From NCBI GenBank assembly GCA_019912395.1, contig JAIOIH010000012.1, positions 1 through 36,225 of the forward strand: DNA of 36,225 nucleotides, read 5' to 3'. A program made the translations under genes and the position numbers. This document shows positions 5,364 to 14,609 of this stretch, in pieces. The DNA is from Flavobacteriales bacterium. GTDB lineage: Bacteria > Bacteroidota > Bacteroidia > Flavobacteriales_F > PHOS-HE28. Below the pieces are notes generated by a model. That model did not search any database. It was not told the DNA's origin and saw only the letters and a program-made list of their open reading frames with translations. The stretch's first letter is position 1. Each line of letters opens with the position of its first letter.

Positions 5364-5427
5364 CTCTCTAAGGGCCAACCACGCCGCAAGGCATGGCCGG
5401 AAGACCCGATAGCCCTGGAAGGCACCC

Positions 5428-5455
5428 TGACAACGGACAACGGACAACGGACAAC
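5428..5455. repeat. Four-unit heptamer array (TGACAAC/GGACAAC)
   Basis: Units TGACAAC, GGACAAC, GGACAAC and GGACAAC are followed by a partial unit TGAAC that reaches the gldE stop codon (5460-5462). It is the same family and unit number as 135-162 and 15783-15810. Confidence 0.85.
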
Positions 5456-5459
5456 TGAA

Positions 5460-6811: not shown

Positions 6812-7255
6812 TCAGAAGGGAAGGTCATCATCATCACCCGGATCGGCTGATCCAGGAGCGGCGTGAGCAGGTTGGGCAGCCTCCGCTTGGCGGGGTGCGC
6901 CTCCTTGTGCAGGGCCGTCACCGGTGGGGCGGTCCAGCATGGTGAGGTTGTCCGCCATGATCTCCGTGGTGTAGCGGTCGATGCCGTCCTTTTCCCATTT
7001 GCGGGTGCGCAGCTTTCCTTCCACGTACACCTTGCTGCCCTTCTTCACGTATTTCTCCACCACTTCCGCCAGGCCGCGCCACACCACCACGCGGTGCCAT
7101 TCGGTCACTTCACGCTTTTCACCGGTCTGGCGGTCCTTGTACGTTTCGCTGGTGGCCAGGTTGAAGTTGGCGACGGTCACATCGTTCTGGAGGTGCCGTA
7201 CTTCGGGATCGGCCCCGAGGTTGCCGATCAATATCACTTTGTTCACGCCGCTCAT
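6812..7255 (-). CDS. ssb: Single-stranded DNA-binding protein
   Basis: A 147-residue SSB with an OB-fold at about residues 4-105 ([41 protein letters not shown]), then a Gly/Pro/Ala-rich linker and the acidic tip DDDDLPF that recruits partner proteins. Start 7255 gives the canonical MSGVNKV N-terminus; the longer open frame upstream is non-homologous. A TATCTTCG promoter box lies 19 nt upstream. Between that box and the next gene sits a remnant of a mutY 3' end (7305-7370). Confidence 0.96.
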
Positions 7256-7274: not shown

Positions 7275-7282
7275 CGAAGATA
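7275..7282 (-). promoter_or_regulatory. -7 promoter box of ssb
   Basis: Read on the minus strand the sequence is TATCTTCG, the same octamer as the box before hup (10590-10597). It ends 19 nt before the ssb ATG and just downstream of the mutY-end remnant, as expected for the ancestral mutY-ssb spacer. Confidence 0.45.
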
Positions 7283-7304: not shown

Positions 7305-7370
7305 TCAAGGAATTTGAACAGTGGGTGGATCCAGCAGGGACGCAAGCCATCGCTCGATCAAGCGGGGCAC
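7305..7370 (-). pseudogene. Remnant of a mutY 3' end
   Basis: On the minus strand this reads [16 protein letters not shown] followed by TVQIP and a stop at 7305. The intact MutY (9500-10552) ends with [15 protein letters not shown], so ten residues, [10 protein letters not shown], are identical. The DNA at 7342-7370 matches 9516-9544 at 26 of 29 positions. The remnant lies exactly where mutY would end in the usual mutY-ssb arrangement. It is interpreted as the displaced original terminus of mutY after the two-gene insertion now at 7381-9354. Confidence 0.7.
7342..7370. repeat. Direct repeat, left copy (mutY end)
   Basis: 29 nt that match 9516-9544 in the same orientation with three mismatches, 2174 bp apart. 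The pair brackets the secreted-protein cassette. Confidence 0.8.
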
Positions 7371-7380
7371 ATCCGGCGGC

Positions 7381-8910
7381 TCACTCACAGATGACCTTCA
7401 CCACGCCGAGGCTTCCCTTTTTGCCAAGCACTTCCACCATGTACAGCCCGGCGGGCAATCCATTCCGCTCAATGGTGTAGGTGGGACCGACCTGCCCTAC
7501 TGCCGTCCGCCGCAGCACACTTCCCAAGGCATTACGCCAGATCAGACTTTCCGGTTGGGTGGCGCCACTGAAGACCAAGGCCGAACGGTCCGCCATGGGG
7601 TTGGGCCGGATGCCGATCCTGTTTGGCATGGTCCCCTCCGCAATTGCAGTGGTGACCGGCGCTATGTTCACATAACGTTTGCAAGGGGTTGGAAAACCGG
7701 CAAGTGGATTGATATCGTAAAATGTACTTTCATGATTGTGTCCCCCGTTTACGATGTCGGCGAGGGGTGGCGTATATGCGCGCATCGTTCGACCTGGCAA
7801 CGTGGTATTGCCTCGTAATTGGAACAATAGTTGACCTGGCGGGGCAACCGCAAGTGTCGGTGCATGAAGATGGATGTACGTGGAATCAAGAAGGTCAGTC
7901 GTGCCAAGAAGTGAATAGGATGTTGCCGCGATGTTGTCAGGTGATGCCATCGAACATTGGATCAAGAGGTCTGCGACATACGAAGTATACGATGCCAAAG
8001 CCAAGTAAAGATGTTGGCCGGAAGGGTCAAAATCCAGGCCCAAGACCTTTGATGGTCGGAAATTTAACGGGGGGCCACCCGGAAAGATGACCAGGTCCAT
8101 GCCCAGTTCGCTCCAAAGATCCAATTGGCCCGTGGCCCGGTCAAATTGAAAAAACTCGATCTTGCTGGTGTCCAACGAGCTCGCGAGCTTGGCAACGGCC
8201 AAAAGGGTTCCTGGCTTTGAAAATATCATTTGTCCTAGCCGGTCCACATTTTCATGTGGTGCGACCTCCGGAAGGAAATCGGACCCGACGTTGGAAGTGA
8301 CCGGTAGATCGGCGAGCCCTCCGGAGGTGAAGTGGAATGCCAAAAAAGTGTCTCCGGAGTCCTTGTGCTGCACCACCCAATAGCCTGTCTCGGAGGAGTC
8401 CACCGTTGCGGAGATCTTGGCCGTGGCGCGCTCCATGTACCAAAGTGTTCCACTACCGACCACGGCACCCGTGCCACCATTGGCGGCCACGTCCACTTCC
8501 ACGTAGCCCGCTCTGGAACTGGGCGGAAGTTCGTTGATGAAAACACCGTACCGTTCGGGAAGACCGGGCACTGGGAGGATCAAATAGTTGCCCGCGGGAA
8601 CGGACCATCCGAGATCGGCGGCGCTTCCTCCTGCCACCGTTCCGAACAGCGCATTTCGTATGCCATGGTCATCCGCCAAGAGCACAAATTGACCAGCGGT
8701 GTCACTGATACAGGCACTGTGGTCCGAGATCGGATCGTTCAAGGAAAAGAGGGTAAGCCCCAGGTCGTCATAAGGTAACCCTTGTGGTAGGCTATCGGGA
8801 AAATGGATCCATACCCCACTCCCGAACACCCAGTTGGCATTGCGGGACTGCGCTTGTGCGAGCTGGGCAATCACCAAGCAAGACCATAATATATGATGTC
8901 GCCTTTTCAT
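7381..8910 (-). CDS. Secreted T9SS-sorted beta-propeller-like protein
   Basis: A 509-residue protein with a signal peptide (about residues 1-20, ending AQAQ). The long middle region has WVFGSGVWIHF, GRxxYVEVDV-like strands and LGLDFDPSGQHLYLA, reminiscent of the WD40/propeller-like secreted proteins common in Bacteroidota. The C-terminal ~80 residues form a type A T9SS sorting domain (IRPNPMADRS near 430; LPAGLYMVEV near 488). It should be exported across the outer membrane by the type IX system; its ligand or substrate cannot be read from the sequence. It begins 9 nt after the end of the 144-residue secreted protein gene and is probably co-transcribed with it. Its stop abuts the mutY-end remnant. 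Base composition looks more AT-rich than the flanking genes. Confidence 0.85.
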   Translation of the reverse strand: MKRRHHILWSCLVIAQLAQAQSRNANWVFGSGVWIHFPDSLPQGLPYDDLGLTLFSLNDPISDHSACISDTAGQFVLLADDHGIRNALFGTVAGGSAADLGWSVPAGNYLILPVPGLPERYGVFINELPPSSRAGYVEVDVAANGGTGAVVGSGTLWYMERATAKISATVDSSETGYWVVQHKDSGDTFLAFHFTSGGLADLPVTSNVGSDFLPEVAPHENVDRLGQMIFSKPGTLLAVAKLASSLDTSKIEFFQFDRATGQLDLWSELGMDLVIFPGGPPLNFRPSKVLGLDFDPSGQHLYLALASYTSYVADLLIQCSMASPDNIAATSYSLLGTTDLLDSTYIHLHAPTLAVAPPGQLLFQLRGNTTLPGRTMRAYTPPLADIVNGGHNHESTFYDINPLAGFPTPCKRYVNIAPVTTAIAEGTMPNRIGIRPNPMADRSALVFSGATQPESLIWRNALGSVLRRTAVGQVGPTYTIERNGLPAGLYMVEVLGKKGSLGVVKVICE

Positions 8911-8919
8911 GGGTCAATC

Positions 8920-9354
8920 TCACGGACGGATGTGCCGACAGGTAATTTCGAACATCAGGCCAGGGTATAATGTGGTCACAAAGTTCGAGGCTTCATTCTC
9001 GCAATGTGGGTTAATTGGTGACGAGCCGCTGGACCAAGACCATTGTGCGCAATTCCAGGAATAGAGGAAGGTACCGCCCGTGGTCGGGTAATAAAAATCC
9101 AGCTGATATATGATAAATCCAGAAGGCGGCGTGATCGTGGCCGGGGTATTGGATGGCCCAACTGAAATTGCATCTGGCGACGATGGTCCTGAAGGTAACT
9201 GTAAACAACTCGTGGAGTACCAGGGAACCACCATCACCGGACATTCGCACTTGGAGTAAAATGTTGCCGATTGTGCAAAGGCAGAACTGATCAATAGGCT
9301 AAAAAAGGCTATGGAAATGAGGTGCACAGTGCGGCGTGGGGGGGGGAGTTTCAT
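8920..9354 (-). CDS. Small secreted protein, unknown function
   Basis: 144 residues. A signal peptide runs from MKLPPPRRTVHL to about SSAFAQ (residue 28). The mature part is rich in Ser, Pro, aromatic residues and Cys (SKCECPVMVVPW, STSC, WNCAQWSW, PHCENE, ITC), which suggests disulfide-stabilised folding outside the cytoplasm. No family is recognised. ATG 9354 is chosen because the signal peptide starts there; the open frame continues upstream into mutY spacer. Codons 3-6 contain a run of nine C (plus-strand G run 9338-9346), so slippage could switch the gene off. Confidence 0.65.
   Translation of the reverse strand: MKLPPPRRTVHLISIAFFSLLISSAFAQSATFYSKCECPVMVVPWYSTSCLQLPSGPSSPDAISVGPSNTPATITPPSGFIIYQLDFYYPTTGGTFLYSWNCAQWSWSSGSSPINPHCENEASNFVTTLYPGLMFEITCRHIRP
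9338..9346. repeat. Homopolymer G9/C9 tract at start of secreted-protein gene
   Basis: Nine consecutive G on the plus strand (C on the coding strand), within codons 3-6 of the gene starting at 9354. Tracts of this length early in surface-protein genes are typical contingency loci. Confidence 0.8.
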
Positions 9355-9499
9355 TGGGCTGTGGTTTGGAGGGATGAAATTAACGAGAATTTTTACATTC
9401 TTCCAACTTTGAGGGTATAGTCTGCTGAGGATGGTCCCGCCCCGGATGCAGGTGCTGCATGCACCCGCAGATCGTTCGTTGCAAAATTCCTGCTGGGGC

Positions 9500-10552
9500 C
9501 TATTCCAACGATGGGGCAAGCCACCGCTCGATCAATCGCGGCACGGCCAATGCCCTCAGCTTCTTAAGCGGCACGAGTTCCCATTCTTCCGGTGGTGCAT
9601 GACCCTTAGGCGGGACCACCGTCCAGAACACGGCATGGATCACTTGGTGGCTCAATACGTGCCGAGCCTCCGCGCCTTTGGCCGAAACGGTCCATCCCTT
9701 TCCGAAGGCGTGGTCCAGTTCGGCTTTCAAGGACCGGTTCTTCACGGGGGCCTTGCTTTCCACCATCGGTGGTTCCCACAGCCCCTGCCAAATGTCCTTG
9801 CCCGTGCGCTGCTGCATGTACAGCCCCTTCGCCGTGCGGATATGCAGGTAGTTGAAGAAGCGGTCGCGGGACTTCGTTCTGCCCTGCTTTACCGGTAGCG
9901 CTTGGACCGTCCCGGTGGCCAGCGCAATGCAGTTTGCATGCAAGGGGCAATGGGGGCAATCGGGCGATCGTGGCATGCACACCGTGGCCCCCAGTTCCAT
10001 CACCGCCTGGTTGTGGTCACCCGGTTGCTTGGGGTCCAACAGCTCTCCGGCCAGCTCCTTGAAGCGCTTCCTTCCTTCTGTGCTGTCGATCGGCATATCG
10101 ATGCCGAATACCCGCGCCAGCACGCGGTACACGTTGCCGTCCACCACGGCGTGCGGCCGGTGGAAGCAGATGGAGGCGATGGCCGATGCGGTATAGTCGC
10201 CCACGCCCTTCAACATTACCAGGTCGGCGTGGTTTTCGGGGAGTCTCCCGCCGTGCTCGTCCATAACCTGTCGGGCGGCCGTCCGCAGGTTCCTGGCCCG
10301 GCTGTAGTAGCCCAGGCCTTGCCATTCCTTTAACACCTCATTCTCGCTTGCCGTGGCCAGGTCGGCCACCGTGGGCCAGCGTTCGGTGAAGAGCAGGAAG
10401 TATCCCAAGCCTTGGTCCACACGGGTCTGCTGGAGGATCACTTCGCTGAGCCATACGCGGTACGGGTCCCGGGTTTCCCGCCAGGGCAGGGGGCGGTGGT
10501 TTTCCCGGTACCAGGGCAGCAACAGCTTCGAAAACCACGAACGGCTTGACAT
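9500..10552 (-). CDS. mutY: A/G-specific adenine DNA glycosylase MutY
   Basis: A 350-residue enzyme that removes adenine mispaired with 8-oxoguanine. It has the catalytic Glu region WLSEVILQQTRVDQG (about 35-49), the helix-hairpin-helix LKGVGDYTASAI (about 114-125) and the catalytic Asp in VVDGNVYRVLARVFGID (about 135-151). The [4Fe-4S] cluster is C-x6-C-x2-C-x5-C (CMPRSPDCPHC ... ANC). A C-terminal NUDIX-like 8-oxoG-recognition domain follows. It is divergent from hup with a 69-bp shared promoter region, the standard arrangement in Bacteroidota. The last ~15 codons exist as a second, diverged copy at 7305-7370. Confidence 0.96.
   Translation of the reverse strand: MSSRSWFSKLLLPWYRENHRPLPWRETRDPYRVWLSEVILQQTRVDQGLGYFLLFTERWPTVADLATASENEVLKEWQGLGYYSRARNLRTAARQVMDEHGGRLPENHADLVMLKGVGDYTASAIASICFHRPHAVVDGNVYRVLARVFGIDMPIDSTEGRKRFKELAGELLDPKQPGDHNQAVMELGATVCMPRSPDCPHCPLHANCIALATGTVQALPVKQGRTKSRDRFFNYLHIRTAKGLYMQQRTGKDIWQGLWEPPMVESKAPVKNRSLKAELDHAFGKGWTVSAKGAEARHVLSHQVIHAVFWTVVPPKGHAPPEEWELVPLKKLRALAVPRLIERWLAPSLE
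9516..9544. repeat. Direct repeat, right copy (inside mutY 3' end)
   Basis: Partner of 7342-7370 (26 of 29 identical). It encodes the [10 protein letters not shown] segment of intact MutY. Confidence 0.8.
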
Positions 10553-10621: not shown

Positions 10622-10915
10622 ATGACGAAGGCGGAACTGGTGGCGGCCATTAGCAGCAGGACAGGCGTTGAGCGCGCGGTGGTGCTCAACACCATCGAGG
10701 CGTTCATGGACCAGGTGAAGAACAGCTTGGAGGCCGGTGAGGACGTGCATTTGCGCGGCTTTGGCAGCTTTCTGCTGAAGCACCGTGCCAAGAAGGTGGG
10801 CCGGAACATCAAGCACAACACGCCCATCATCATCGAGGCGCACGACATCCCCTACTTCAAGCCGGCCGACATTTTTGTGGACAAGGTGAAAAACCGGCCG
10901 AAGGTGACCGCTTGA
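10622..10915 (+). CDS. HU/IHF-family DNA-binding protein
   Basis: A 97-residue nucleoid protein with the family pattern MTKAELVAAIS at the N-terminus, LRGFGSF at about 43-49 and the beta-arm GRNIKHNTP...FKPAD at about 60-82. In E. coli HU the arm has RNP with a DNA-intercalating proline; here Ile follows RN, as in many Bacteroidota homologues. It overlaps the next gene by ATGA (10912-10915), so the pair is probably co-translated. Confidence 0.95.
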   Translation: MTKAELVAAISSRTGVERAVVLNTIEAFMDQVKNSLEAGEDVHLRGFGSFLLKHRAKKVGRNIKHNTPIIIEAHDIPYFKPADIFVDKVKNRPKVTA

Positions 10916-13245: not shown

Positions 13246-13329
13246 TAGCCTCAAGCCATTAGCCTCAAGCTGCAAGCTTGGGTTGCTCTGGTAGTTAAGC
13301 TTGTGGCTTGAAGCTATCGGCTAATGGCT
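13246..13329. repeat. Inverted repeat of CTTGAGGCT-type words after rng
   Basis: Arm 1 (13246-13279) and arm 2 (13297-13329) are imperfectly complementary. The best part is AAGCTTG..GCTTGA.GCTA against its complement, with a 17-nt loop. Both arms are built from repeated AAGCTTG/GCTTGAG words. It may act as the rng terminator. The start codon of the recX fragment (13324) falls inside arm 2. Confidence 0.65.
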
Positions 13330-13430
13330 GAACAACCGATCTCCGAAACACTCCTCCTCGCCAAAGCCCGCGCCTACTGCGCCCGCCAAGAGCGGTGCCA
13401 GCAGGAAGTGCGGGAAGGTGTACACCTGGT
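13324..13430 (+). pseudogene. Truncated second copy of the recX 5' end
   Basis: Translates as MAEQPISETLLLAKARAYCA, then RQERCQQEVRE, after which the frame is lost. Intact RecX reads ILSKARNYCARQERCQQEVR at the same place. The DNA at 13363-13415 matches 14154-14206 at 51 of 53 positions, including 41 identical bases. Just after that the fragment lacks two bases (CA) relative to recX and similarity fades by about 13430, where the hepT end begins. It is a duplicated, diverged gene end rather than a functional gene. Confidence 0.85.
13363..13415. repeat. Direct repeat, left copy (recX 5' end)
   Basis: 53 nt matching 14154-14206 with two mismatches, spacing 791 bp. The pair brackets the mntA-hepT module. 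Confidence 0.92.
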
Positions 13431-13437
13431 GCGCGCA

Positions 13438-13773
13438 TCATTCCGGCAACGAATCGAGGATCGCCTCCATTTGGGGCTTTAGCGCAGGAATGTGGATCCG
13501 TACCACCTCCGCAACGATGGCCGTATCGATACGGAAATAATCGTGGACCAAGCGGTTCCGCATACCAATGACCAAGTTCCAAGGAACTTCCGGGTGGGCT
13601 TGACGAAGTTCCTTTGTCAGCAAGTTGGAGGCTTCGCCGATCACTTCAATGAGTTTAACCACCGCATAGCGGAGCATTGCATCCCGGTCCAGTTTGTCCT
13701 CGGTGACCGGGTAGGCATGTTCCTCCAATTCCCGGATGGCATCAAGAATATGGCCGGATCCTGTCGGCTTCAG
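13438..13773 (-). CDS. hepT: HepT-like HEPN ribonuclease toxin
   Basis: The RNase toxin of an MNT-HEPN toxin-antitoxin pair (DUF86). The catalytic motif R-x4-H-x-Y is visible as RNRLVHDY at about residue 80 of the long form; the Tyr is the site that MntA AMPylates to silence the toxin in characterised systems. An ATG-started form is not available. TTG 13728 gives 96 residues but cuts off the conserved GHILDAIRELEE helix. Extending the frame reaches CTG 13773, which overlaps the mntA stop as CTGA and yields the usual ~111 residues, so a CTG start coupled to mntA termination is proposed; the start remains uncertain. Confidence 0.85.
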   Translation of the reverse strand: MKPTGSGHILDAIRELEEHAYPVTEDKLDRDAMLRYAVVKLIEVIGEASNLLTKELRQAHPEVPWNLVIGMRNRLVHDYFRIDTAIVAEVVRIHIPALKPQMEAILDSLPE

Positions 13774-14066
13774 GCCCGCGCATAGATCAGCTGCTTGTCG
13801 CGGTCCACGTATGGCTTCACATGCGGGCTGAGCCCCTTCGTGGTGACCAAGTCCACGCGTCGTTTCAGCAATGCTTCCAGGTCCAGCTCCATTTGGATGA
13901 AATGCAAGCCGATGGGCTTTGAATGGTCCAGTTCCACTAAAATGTCCACATCGCTCTGGGCATCAGCAGCCCCACGGGCGAATGAACCGAAAAGGAATGC
14001 CTGCTTCACGGGCTGGATCGCGAAGTAGGTGCAAAGCCGTTCCAAAGTTTGATCATCCAAGGCCAT
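13770..14066 (-). CDS. mntA: MntA-like minimal nucleotidyltransferase antitoxin
   Basis: 98 residues. It has the nucleotidyltransferase signature GSFARGAADAQSDVDILVEL, i.e. GS-x10-DxD, near residues 28-47, and a downstream RRVDLVT segment with the third acidic residue. In MntA-HepT systems this enzyme adds AMP groups to the HEPN toxin. ATG 14066 is chosen for homology and because a TACCTTTG promoter box ends 4 nt upstream. It is followed without a gap by hepT. The pair lies between two copies of the recX 5' end and reads against recX, so it was probably acquired. Confidence 0.9.
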   Translation of the reverse strand: MALDDQTLERLCTYFAIQPVKQAFLFGSFARGAADAQSDVDILVELDHSKPIGLHFIQMELDLEALLKRRVDLVTTKGLSPHVKPYVDRDKQLIYARA

Positions 14067-14070
14067 ATTG

Positions 14071-14078
14071 CAAAGGTA
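14071..14078 (-). promoter_or_regulatory. -7 promoter box of mntA-hepT
   Basis: On the minus strand this is TACCTTTGC, a perfect TAnnTTTG, ending 4 nt before the mntA ATG. Transcription from it would give an essentially leaderless mRNA. Confidence 0.6.
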
Positions 14079-14114
14079 TGAGCTGCGCCCGCAGCAGTAG
14101 GTTCGCGCCTGTTC

Positions 14115-14609
14115 ATGCACAAGGATCCACCGCTACAGCATAATATCCTCTCAAAAGCCCGCAACTACTGCGCCCGCCAAGAGCGGTGCCAGCAGGAAGT
14201 GCGGGACAAGGTGTACGCATGGGGTGGGCACGAAGAATCGGTGGAACAGATCATTGCGCAGCTCATCGGTGAAGGTTTCTTGAATGAAGCCCGGTTCGCG
14301 GAGCACTACGCGGTGAGCAAGAGCAGGCAGAAAGGCTGGGGCGAGCGGAAGATCGAGCAGGCGTTGAAGGCGAAGGGCGTTTCGGAGCGCTGCATCGCTT
14401 CGGGCCTGAAGGCCATCGATGGGGATGAAGAGGAACAGCAGCTCCGGTTGGCCGTGACCAAGCGCTGGGAAAAGCTGAAGAAGGAGGAACCATTCATAAG
14501 GAAGGGGAAGCTGGTCCGCCATTTCATCGGAAGGGGTTTCTCCCGGGAGCGGATCGAGAAGGCGTTGGAGGAACTGCAGGAGGAAAGTGGAAGTTCGCAC
14601 CGTTCTTGA
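14115..14609 (+). CDS. recX: Regulatory protein RecX
   Basis: A 164-residue, mainly helical, charged protein with the RecX three-helix repeats (ARNYCARQERCQQEVRDKV; IIAQLIGEGFLNEARFAEHY; GERKIEQALKAKGVSE; LVRHFIGRGFSRERIEKAL). RecX binds RecA filaments and limits recombination. The first ~12 residues differ from those of the upstream fragment (13324-13430) while the next ~20 are almost identical. Its 3' end contains the -33 element of the prfB promoter (14606-14608). Confidence 0.9.
   Translation: MHKDPPLQHNILSKARNYCARQERCQQEVRDKVYAWGGHEESVEQIIAQLIGEGFLNEARFAEHYAVSKSRQKGWGERKIEQALKAKGVSERCIASGLKAIDGDEEEQQLRLAVTKRWEKLKKEEPFIRKGKLVRHFIGRGFSRERIEKALEELQEESGSSHRS
14154..14206. repeat. Direct repeat, right copy (inside recX)
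   Basis: Partner of 13363-13415; encodes KARNYCARQERCQQEVR of intact RecX. Confidence 0.92.

Follow-up and report, generated by a model that had tools for sequence, protein, structure and literature searches.

Displaced ends of housekeeping genes behind short cassettes: a second mutY end at the mutY-ssb site of a Flavobacteriales genome and similar arrangements in its genus

Integron cassette arrays consist of small genes, some of them toxin-antitoxin genes, which are separated by a repeated element. The 15-kb prophage e14 of Escherichia coli integrates site-specifically at icd. In doing so, it displaces an icd end of 163 bp, according to excerpts of PMC6379469. For loci of type VI secretion systems (T6SS) and Rhs, excerpts of PMC5361080 describe the arrival of new modules that are anchored in conserved sequence and shift the former 3' part downstream, for which homology-facilitated illegitimate recombination was proposed. 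The minimal mobile elements of Neisseria are, in the excerpted definition (PMC3082526), different whole-gene cassettes placed between two conserved genes via homologous recombination, and small variable segments between collinear regions are, in part of PMC2884548, described as common in well-studied species. Here, we describe a stretch of 36,225 nucleotides (the window; contig JAIOIH010000012.1 of assembly GCA_019912395.1, positions 1-36,225) from Flavobacteriales bacterium, PHOS-HE28 (the source genome, W or G000), in which the 3' end of mutY is present a second time, displaced behind two cargo genes and in front of ssb, along with displaced ends of other housekeeping genes in the genus.

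Unlike in integron arrays, the repeat here is the end of a housekeeping gene, a contrast that concerns layout, as IntI and attC were not searched for. As at icd in the excerpted account (PMC6379469), the insert supplies a new gene end and the old end is displaced, over a length similar to that of the acs and carboxyltransferase ends described below; unlike e14, however, the cassettes are short, no integrase was seen in the open reading frames (ORFs) scanned, and both 3' ends (mutY, acs, and carboxyltransferase) and 5' ends (recX) are affected. A mutY-ssb content that varies between genomes (of species here, not of strains) and a cassette lacking mobility genes are shared with minimal mobile elements, but a displaced second gene end is not part of their definition as excerpted (PMC3082526). 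At T6SS/Rhs loci, the displaced parts belong to an effector system in the excerpts of PMC5361080, whereas here they are the ends of unrelated housekeeping genes. Narrow word searches of the open-licence literature returned no published description of cassettes capped by housekeeping-gene ends; in particular, no account was found that combines short integrase-less cassettes, several housekeeping genes, both gene ends, and arrays within one genus.

By itself, the mutY case is no more than a modest curiosity; its real interest is that it points to a process that recurs. It has long been asked how small islands and toxin-antitoxin pairs get from genome to genome when they carry neither an integrase nor a transposase. 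A displaced gene end is a scar that can reveal the entry point of a cassette and its anchored side, and the many scars at two housekeeping genes in one genus make it testable whether homologous recombination through gene ends is enough or a recombinase acts in trans. Truncated gene ends in annotations, moreover, can be insertion scars and not decayed duplicates.

Genomes of relatives are designated by G-numbers, with G022 being the sister of the source genome. Most of them are fragmented, and the samples were non-random, as the window and the mutY loci were chosen; the mutY case is one genome. A near-full mutY match was present in 22/22 same-genus genomes of one set and in 40/44 other genus genomes of a second. 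The mutY locus of the source genome was compared with those of 41 others from the genus, among which G050 contributes an incomplete gene, and ssb was placed behind mutY in 38 genus genomes, including the source genome, with counts on the gap to ssb made via motif searches. A further scan of genome contigs covered records of metagenome-assembled genomes, including same-genus contigs, none of which was closer by MutY.

A second mutY end between cargo genes and ssb

Read along the minus strand, the gene order is mutY, a gene for a small exported protein of 144 aa, a gene for a secreted protein of 509 aa, the displaced mutY end, ssb, and gldE. The intact mutY (9500..10552, minus strand; 317 bits for TIGR01084, cut-off 286.5) encodes a full-length MutY of 350 aa, ending in LAPSLE directly before the stop. 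The displaced second 3' end, recognized by its repeat and a shuffle test, comprises 21 residues and a stop (66 nt; 7305..7370, minus strand). The copies at 7342-7370 and 9516-9544 are identical at 26 of 29 bases, lie 2174 bp apart (start to start), and differ, as read by eye, at three synonymous third positions. Their score of 43 was not reached by any of 2000 dinucleotide shuffles of the ssb-side stretch (maximum 29), and 500 shuffles of the whole mutY-ssb spacer gave a highest score of 32. Past the repeat the tails differ, with an 11-residue end and stop of its own on the displaced copy and PSLE on mutY.

Downstream of the displaced end, the ssb gene (6812..7255, minus strand; Pfam SSB), in whose tree the source genome and G022 are grouped (90/88), is preceded at approximately 27 bp by the motif TATCTTCG (7275..7282, minus strand). 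We take it to be a -7-like promoter motif of the Bacteroidetes type, with the insertion on its upstream side. In 37 of the 38 listed genomes, a match to TAnnTT[TCG]G is found 26-36 bp upstream of the ssb ATG; the exception is G006, with none in the 60 bp searched. Since TATCTTCG has counterparts in 37/38 genomes, the insertion spares mutY and the ssb promoter region. In Flavobacterium psychrophilum, transcription of gldD from the mutY and ssb promoters was suggested in part of PMC5682007.

The mutY-ssb site is a small variable locus with occupied and empty forms in the genus. The gap is at most 200 bp in 29 of the 38 genus genomes and longer in nine, and the sister genome G022 is syntenic around mutY-ssb, with an empty site. 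Across species of the genus, the site is empty, or holds the small exported gene together with the secreted-protein gene, GH20 hexosaminidase genes (in G004, G006, G019, G049, and G051; Pfam checked for the G004 gene only), all three, or other genes. The displaced mutY end was found in the source genome only (1/38). In the scan of genome contigs, ssb could be located at 42 of 80 loci, partly on contigs already counted, and none of these had such an end.

A preliminary description of the window, made from the sequence alone, had reported the second mutY end, an intact MutY, and a usual state in which mutY directly precedes ssb, all of which agree with the data above. It had also predicted an empty site with a mutY ending in an LASLLDPP-like sequence, and had suggested looking for other cargo bounded by the same duplicated end. 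Neither was found: the mutY of the empty sister G022 ends otherwise, and no other cargo with a duplicated mutY end was present among the 38 genus genomes. Two situations that it had named as speaking against an insertion, namely relatives ending in LAPSLE without a second copy and an ancient tandem mutY duplication, were not seen either.

Both cargo proteins open with a signal-peptide-like N-terminus (read by eye). No Pfam family was found in either of them, nor was a mobility gene or integrase found in the mutY cassette. The 509-aa protein (7381..8910, minus strand) is beta-rich and carries a weak C-terminal sorting domain of the type IX secretion system (T9SS), scoring 16.3 bits for the type A domain (below the cut-off of 23). 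It is a member of a multi-copy family, of which 7/21 members match TIGR04183 at E 0.01, and SprA is present in the source genome. Its predicted structure (mean pLDDT 73) gave Foldseek matches of modest TM-score, several of which are presumably beta-propellers. Homologues are located at the mutY-ssb site of G004, G006, and G017; in the best tree, these three cluster with the copy of the source genome, with a support of only 61/60. The same three genomes carry homologues of the 144-aa protein (8920..9354, minus strand) at this site (partial in G006); elsewhere in the 45 genus genomes, it had one weak match in G043 and no other strong match. Because homologous cargo is found at the same site in three relatives, it seems, from these sequence comparisons, to be an old resident that comes and goes. 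The G017 homologue of the 509-aa protein is split over two reading frames, and the cargo seems to be decaying there.

The explanation towards which we lean, if only slightly, is that the source genome is a recombinant of an occupied and an empty mutY-ssb allele, that the same anatomy recurs elsewhere, and that cassettes travel with a gene end. The mutY side, consisting of the mutY ending in LAPSLE, the small exported gene, and the T9SS-type gene, would derive from the occupied allele, and the ssb side from an empty allele of which only the last 21 mutY codons, the stop, and the ssb leader were kept, with the two alleles recombining between closely related strains. A join inside the other copy of mutY would have been harmless, because one partner supplied a complete mutY. 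The ssb start lies 115 bp away from the first repeated codon, compared with 125 bp in the empty G022. The preliminary description had put forward an integrase-less insertion that brought its own gene end, possibly arising through homology-facilitated recombination with DNA of a relative. A recombination scar is still the best reading, and its anatomy recurs at other genes; a simple arrival of the cargo, however, does not agree with the homologues at the same site in three relatives, and an import of mutY from a distant relative is not supported.

Such an import had been considered since MutY is 73% identical to that of G022, versus 84-99% for most other matched genes of the window. It was dropped, as control sister pairs with flank distances of 0.053-0.074 showed MutY distances of 0.205-0.307, compared with 0.272 at a flank distance of 0.06 here: the divergence is ordinary for a fast-evolving mutY. 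The last 50 full MutY columns side with G022. MutY evolves fast throughout the genus, and triplet counts often conflict with those of flanking genes, in control trios as well.

The displaced piece is closest to the mutY of the source genome itself (26/29; best relative 24/29), as would also result from a local duplication: the mutY end would have come to lie next to the 3' flank of the cargo through a tandem duplication, followed by loss of the second cargo copy. This would take two exact events, however, and both the differing tails and a piece-to-ssb spacing close to that of the empty G022 speak against it, which makes it improbable. More improbable still is an assembly artefact that joined two strains. 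The window is one contig of an 87-contig assembly, but the longest exact run shared by the two ends is 11 bp, probably too short to mislead an assembler. Apart from a distant second match (E 1.7e-4), a single mutY is present in the genome, so a second full mutY from a chimaeric assembly was not seen, and the same anatomy is present in the single-contig genome G010 and in G004 (4 contigs).

At the junction between the 3' flank of the cargo and the displaced end (7371..7380, read by eye), the stop of the 509-aa gene is followed by TGAGCCGCCGGA, which resembles TGAGCCGCTGCCGGA behind the G004 homologue, and then by an abrupt switch to mutY, with nothing firm in the way of microhomology. An abrupt junction without clear homology is a good fit to a one-off event of homology-facilitated illegitimate recombination, in which one end pairs within the gene and the other joins randomly in the recipient's copy, separately at each site and without any dedicated unit. 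This mode is described for natural transformation and conjugation (PMC3240628), and it has been put forward to explain orphan 3' ends and displaced immunity genes (excerpts of PMC5361080). At mutY, the abrupt right join is seen, and the left end would be the homologous one. We see such separate events as a tentative alternative, since it is the same two genes that show displaced ends throughout the genus, and since these ends stay below approximately 195 bp, where random joins should leave longer pieces too.

Displaced ends of recX, carboxyltransferase, and acs

The window also holds two copies of the start of recX, approximately 4 kb away from the mutY end (13355-13415 and 14146-14206; 61 nt, 93%). 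The intact recX (14115..14609, plus strand; Pfam RecX HTH1-3) and a displaced 5' end, found beyond this second cassette when the window was searched for repeats (13324..13425, plus strand), enclose two genes on the minus strand, which encode a HepT-like toxin (13438..13728; 81.4 bits for Pfam HepT-like, 35.4 for NCBIfam HepT with a cut-off of 60) and an MntA-like nucleotidyltransferase antitoxin (13770..14120; 53.5 bits for Pfam NTP_transf_2, 52.7 for NCBIfam MntA with a cut-off of 60). A pair of the MntA/HepT type is also found at the RNase E/G-recX site in G006, G019, and G050. Among the 23 genomes with both flanking genes, 14 had a testable gap, and in four of these a displaced recX start scored above all 100 shuffles (source genome, 113 versus 25; G058, 50 versus 24; G019, 35 versus 24; and G050, 33 versus 25, which is weak). 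The displaced fragment resembles the recX start of G002, in which the gap is 119 bp.

A 318-kb scan of the source genome revealed a carboxyltransferase gene of the mmdA/PccB type (best NCBIfam match below cut-off), the last 117 bp of which are repeated at 85% identity 314 bp behind the stop, past a small antitoxin-like ORF (locus L184, 10808-12879, on contig C4). In total, 24 displaced copies of its last 70 residues were found in 17 of 27 genus loci, while seven other 70-residue segments and ten shuffles yielded none. Arrays of displaced ends are present as well, with at least four in G011 and two each in G006, G010, and G043. The first displaced end is located 0.1-4.6 kb behind the stop, except for 9.3 kb in G004, and the left boundaries fall at residues 484-524 of 546 in 16/17 loci. 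Outside the genus, one of 86 genomes of the class with the carboxyltransferase end showed a second copy (G077). In 18 of the 45 genomes searched, which are outside the 27 loci, the end was missing, cut by a contig end, or not fetched; displaced fragments were nonetheless found in G014, G056, and a second G050 contig outside these loci. Within the 27, G044 has only 139 bp behind the gene, and the end in G017 could not be placed on the DNA.

The cargo at this site includes a RelB/ParD-like antitoxin (weak match), RhuM, ParE, MlaD, and secreted proteins. No integrase or recombinase was detected in the 10 carboxyltransferase-site ORFs to which the Pfam scan was confined. In the trees, G010 and G039 do not differ in MutY, HU, or GldE. 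Long stretches of their carboxyltransferase genes are identical too, but one patch close to the start has diverged (0.83-0.97), and identity drops to 88% over the last 120 nt. Past the stop, they carry unrelated cassettes, each with a displaced end. Translational coupling of cassette ORFs to the carboxyltransferase stop (14/17 versus 5/9, p 0.19) is not claimed. Near displaced carboxyltransferase ends, genes resembling those for REP-associated tyrosine transposases were observed (L280, 2475-3212; L252, 6098-6745); the two checked scored 51.7 and 62.7 for NCBIfam, with a cut-off of 80. Similar ORFs were seen by eye in several other loci, and the source genome has 7 matches to Pfam Y1_Tnp; a link between such genes and the displaced ends is not claimed.

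The acs gene (acetate-CoA ligase, TIGR02188) was the one clear in-frame end, by eye, among 7 matches in a 400-kb sample of the single-contig genome G010, where a 492-bp cassette encoding a ParE-type toxin is followed by a copy of the last 182 nt of acs (87%; L286, 10913-13499). In the source genome (contig C87; L308/L317), the displaced end follows a 77-aa ORF, for which Pfam gave no match, and a PIN-domain gene. At least nine of the 38 genomes with a match, the source genome among them, have acs ends displaced in this way past the main gene, with four such ends in G004. Related cassette ends are found in different species: one type is shared by G004, G006, G010, G054, and G056 (ParE in G010), and a second by G000, G004, and G017 (PIN in G000). 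The G043 end was counted at the protein level, with no DNA alignment, and acs fragments outside the nine genomes were found in G042 and G050 (no main gene on that contig), G060, and G002.

In 9 of 12 copies, the left boundary of the displaced acs end lies 176-193 bp before the stop, with at least three unrelated cassette types represented. Together with the bounded lengths of displaced ends and an anatomy like that of e14 at icd, where 163 bp are displaced (excerpts of PMC6379469), this points to site-specific integration, in which a recombinase acting in trans, or lost since, would insert small elements near gene ends, each bringing its own gene end. However, no recombinase was seen in the carboxyltransferase-site ORFs scanned (10 ORFs, the remainder not being covered), cassettes of a few hundred bp are too small to encode one, the carboxyltransferase boundaries are spread over residues 484-524, and no core common to the different genes was apparent by eye. 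We consider site-specific integration rather unlikely.

Proposed travel of cassettes with a gene end

Under the explanation towards which we lean, cassettes would travel with approximately 70-195 bp of the end of the neighbouring gene; the carried end would pair with the recipient's copy of the gene, restore it, and push the old end behind the cassette. The repair of the gene, the displaced ends, and the arrays would all be accounted for by homologous recombination in the carried end, whether or not the far side is joined illegitimately. Natural transformation may supply the DNA; a ComEC-type gene is present. A broader proposal, which is possible but which we hold with clearly less confidence than that explanation, is a genus-wide population of integrase-less cassettes, each consisting of small cargo, in several cases toxin-antitoxin genes, and the last 70-195 bp of a housekeeping gene as an attachment arm. 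Such cassettes could enter at that gene in any relative, and the old end would serve as a new arm, giving rise to arrays behind acs and carboxyltransferase, with mutY and recX as rarer sites.

Several observations weigh against cassettes that travel with gene ends, at mutY and in general. The mutY case is single, and its repeat of 29 bp, in which no exact run exceeds 11 bp, would be a poor recombination arm. The predicted empty donor allele was not found among the genus genomes examined, and a remnant nearest to the genome's own mutY would also be left by a recent local duplication. Between the repeat and the ssb promoter, no similarity to the G022 leader was detectable (p 0.11), so that an unbroken segment of an empty site is backed only by its similar length. 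Displaced acs and carboxyltransferase ends do not exceed approximately 65 codons, and such bounded ends, together with the tight boundaries of 9/12 acs copies, fit a site-specific recombinase better than random joins. Swapping of gene ends between lineages was proposed at first, as the nearest neighbours of the carboxyltransferase end and body differed in 17/21 genomes, and it failed its control: nine other 55-codon windows gave 12-18/21, compared with 16/21 for the end.

Nor did unselected scans of DNA and protein show a clear excess in the genus over non-genus controls. DNA matches numbered 2 in the window (36 kb), 2 in 318 kb of the source genome, and 4 in 440 kb of G022, with 5 in 555 kb of genus loci versus 6 in non-genus loci totalling 759 kb. 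At 30 bits, scanning of proteins, which is blind to mutY because the shared end is too short, gave 5/0, 2/0, 2/1, and 3/0 real/decoy matches. By eye only, the non-genus matches look like dispersed repeats, and those of the genus include in-frame gene ends. The strong case thus rests on two genes with genus-wide arrays, and not on a high rate everywhere.

Stray cases and neighbouring features

Two stray cases were noted in relatives. In G022 (L073, 3828-6654), a gene ending in FVFWKRQAP has a second end, FVFWKRENP, approximately 1 kb downstream, past another ORF (82.5% over 40 nt). In G007 (L049, 7182-9498), the 3' end of a gene is copied approximately 550 bp past its stop (164 nt, 95%), with the frame of the copy broken.

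The HU gene (10622..10915, plus strand) is unusually diverged from that of G022, according to distances and trees. Its distance is 0.208, versus 0-0.043 in the five other pairs of smallest flank distance, and the changes fall at positions that are conserved in the other aligned subclade genomes. The HU trees place the source genome with G006, G019, G049, and G051 (96/91, then 85/90), while grouping it with G022 was not rejected by an AU test (p 0.14). An intergenic repeat of the ACAACGGACAACTGACAACT type occurs in the window at 130-163 and 5423-5456, with similar stretches in G022.

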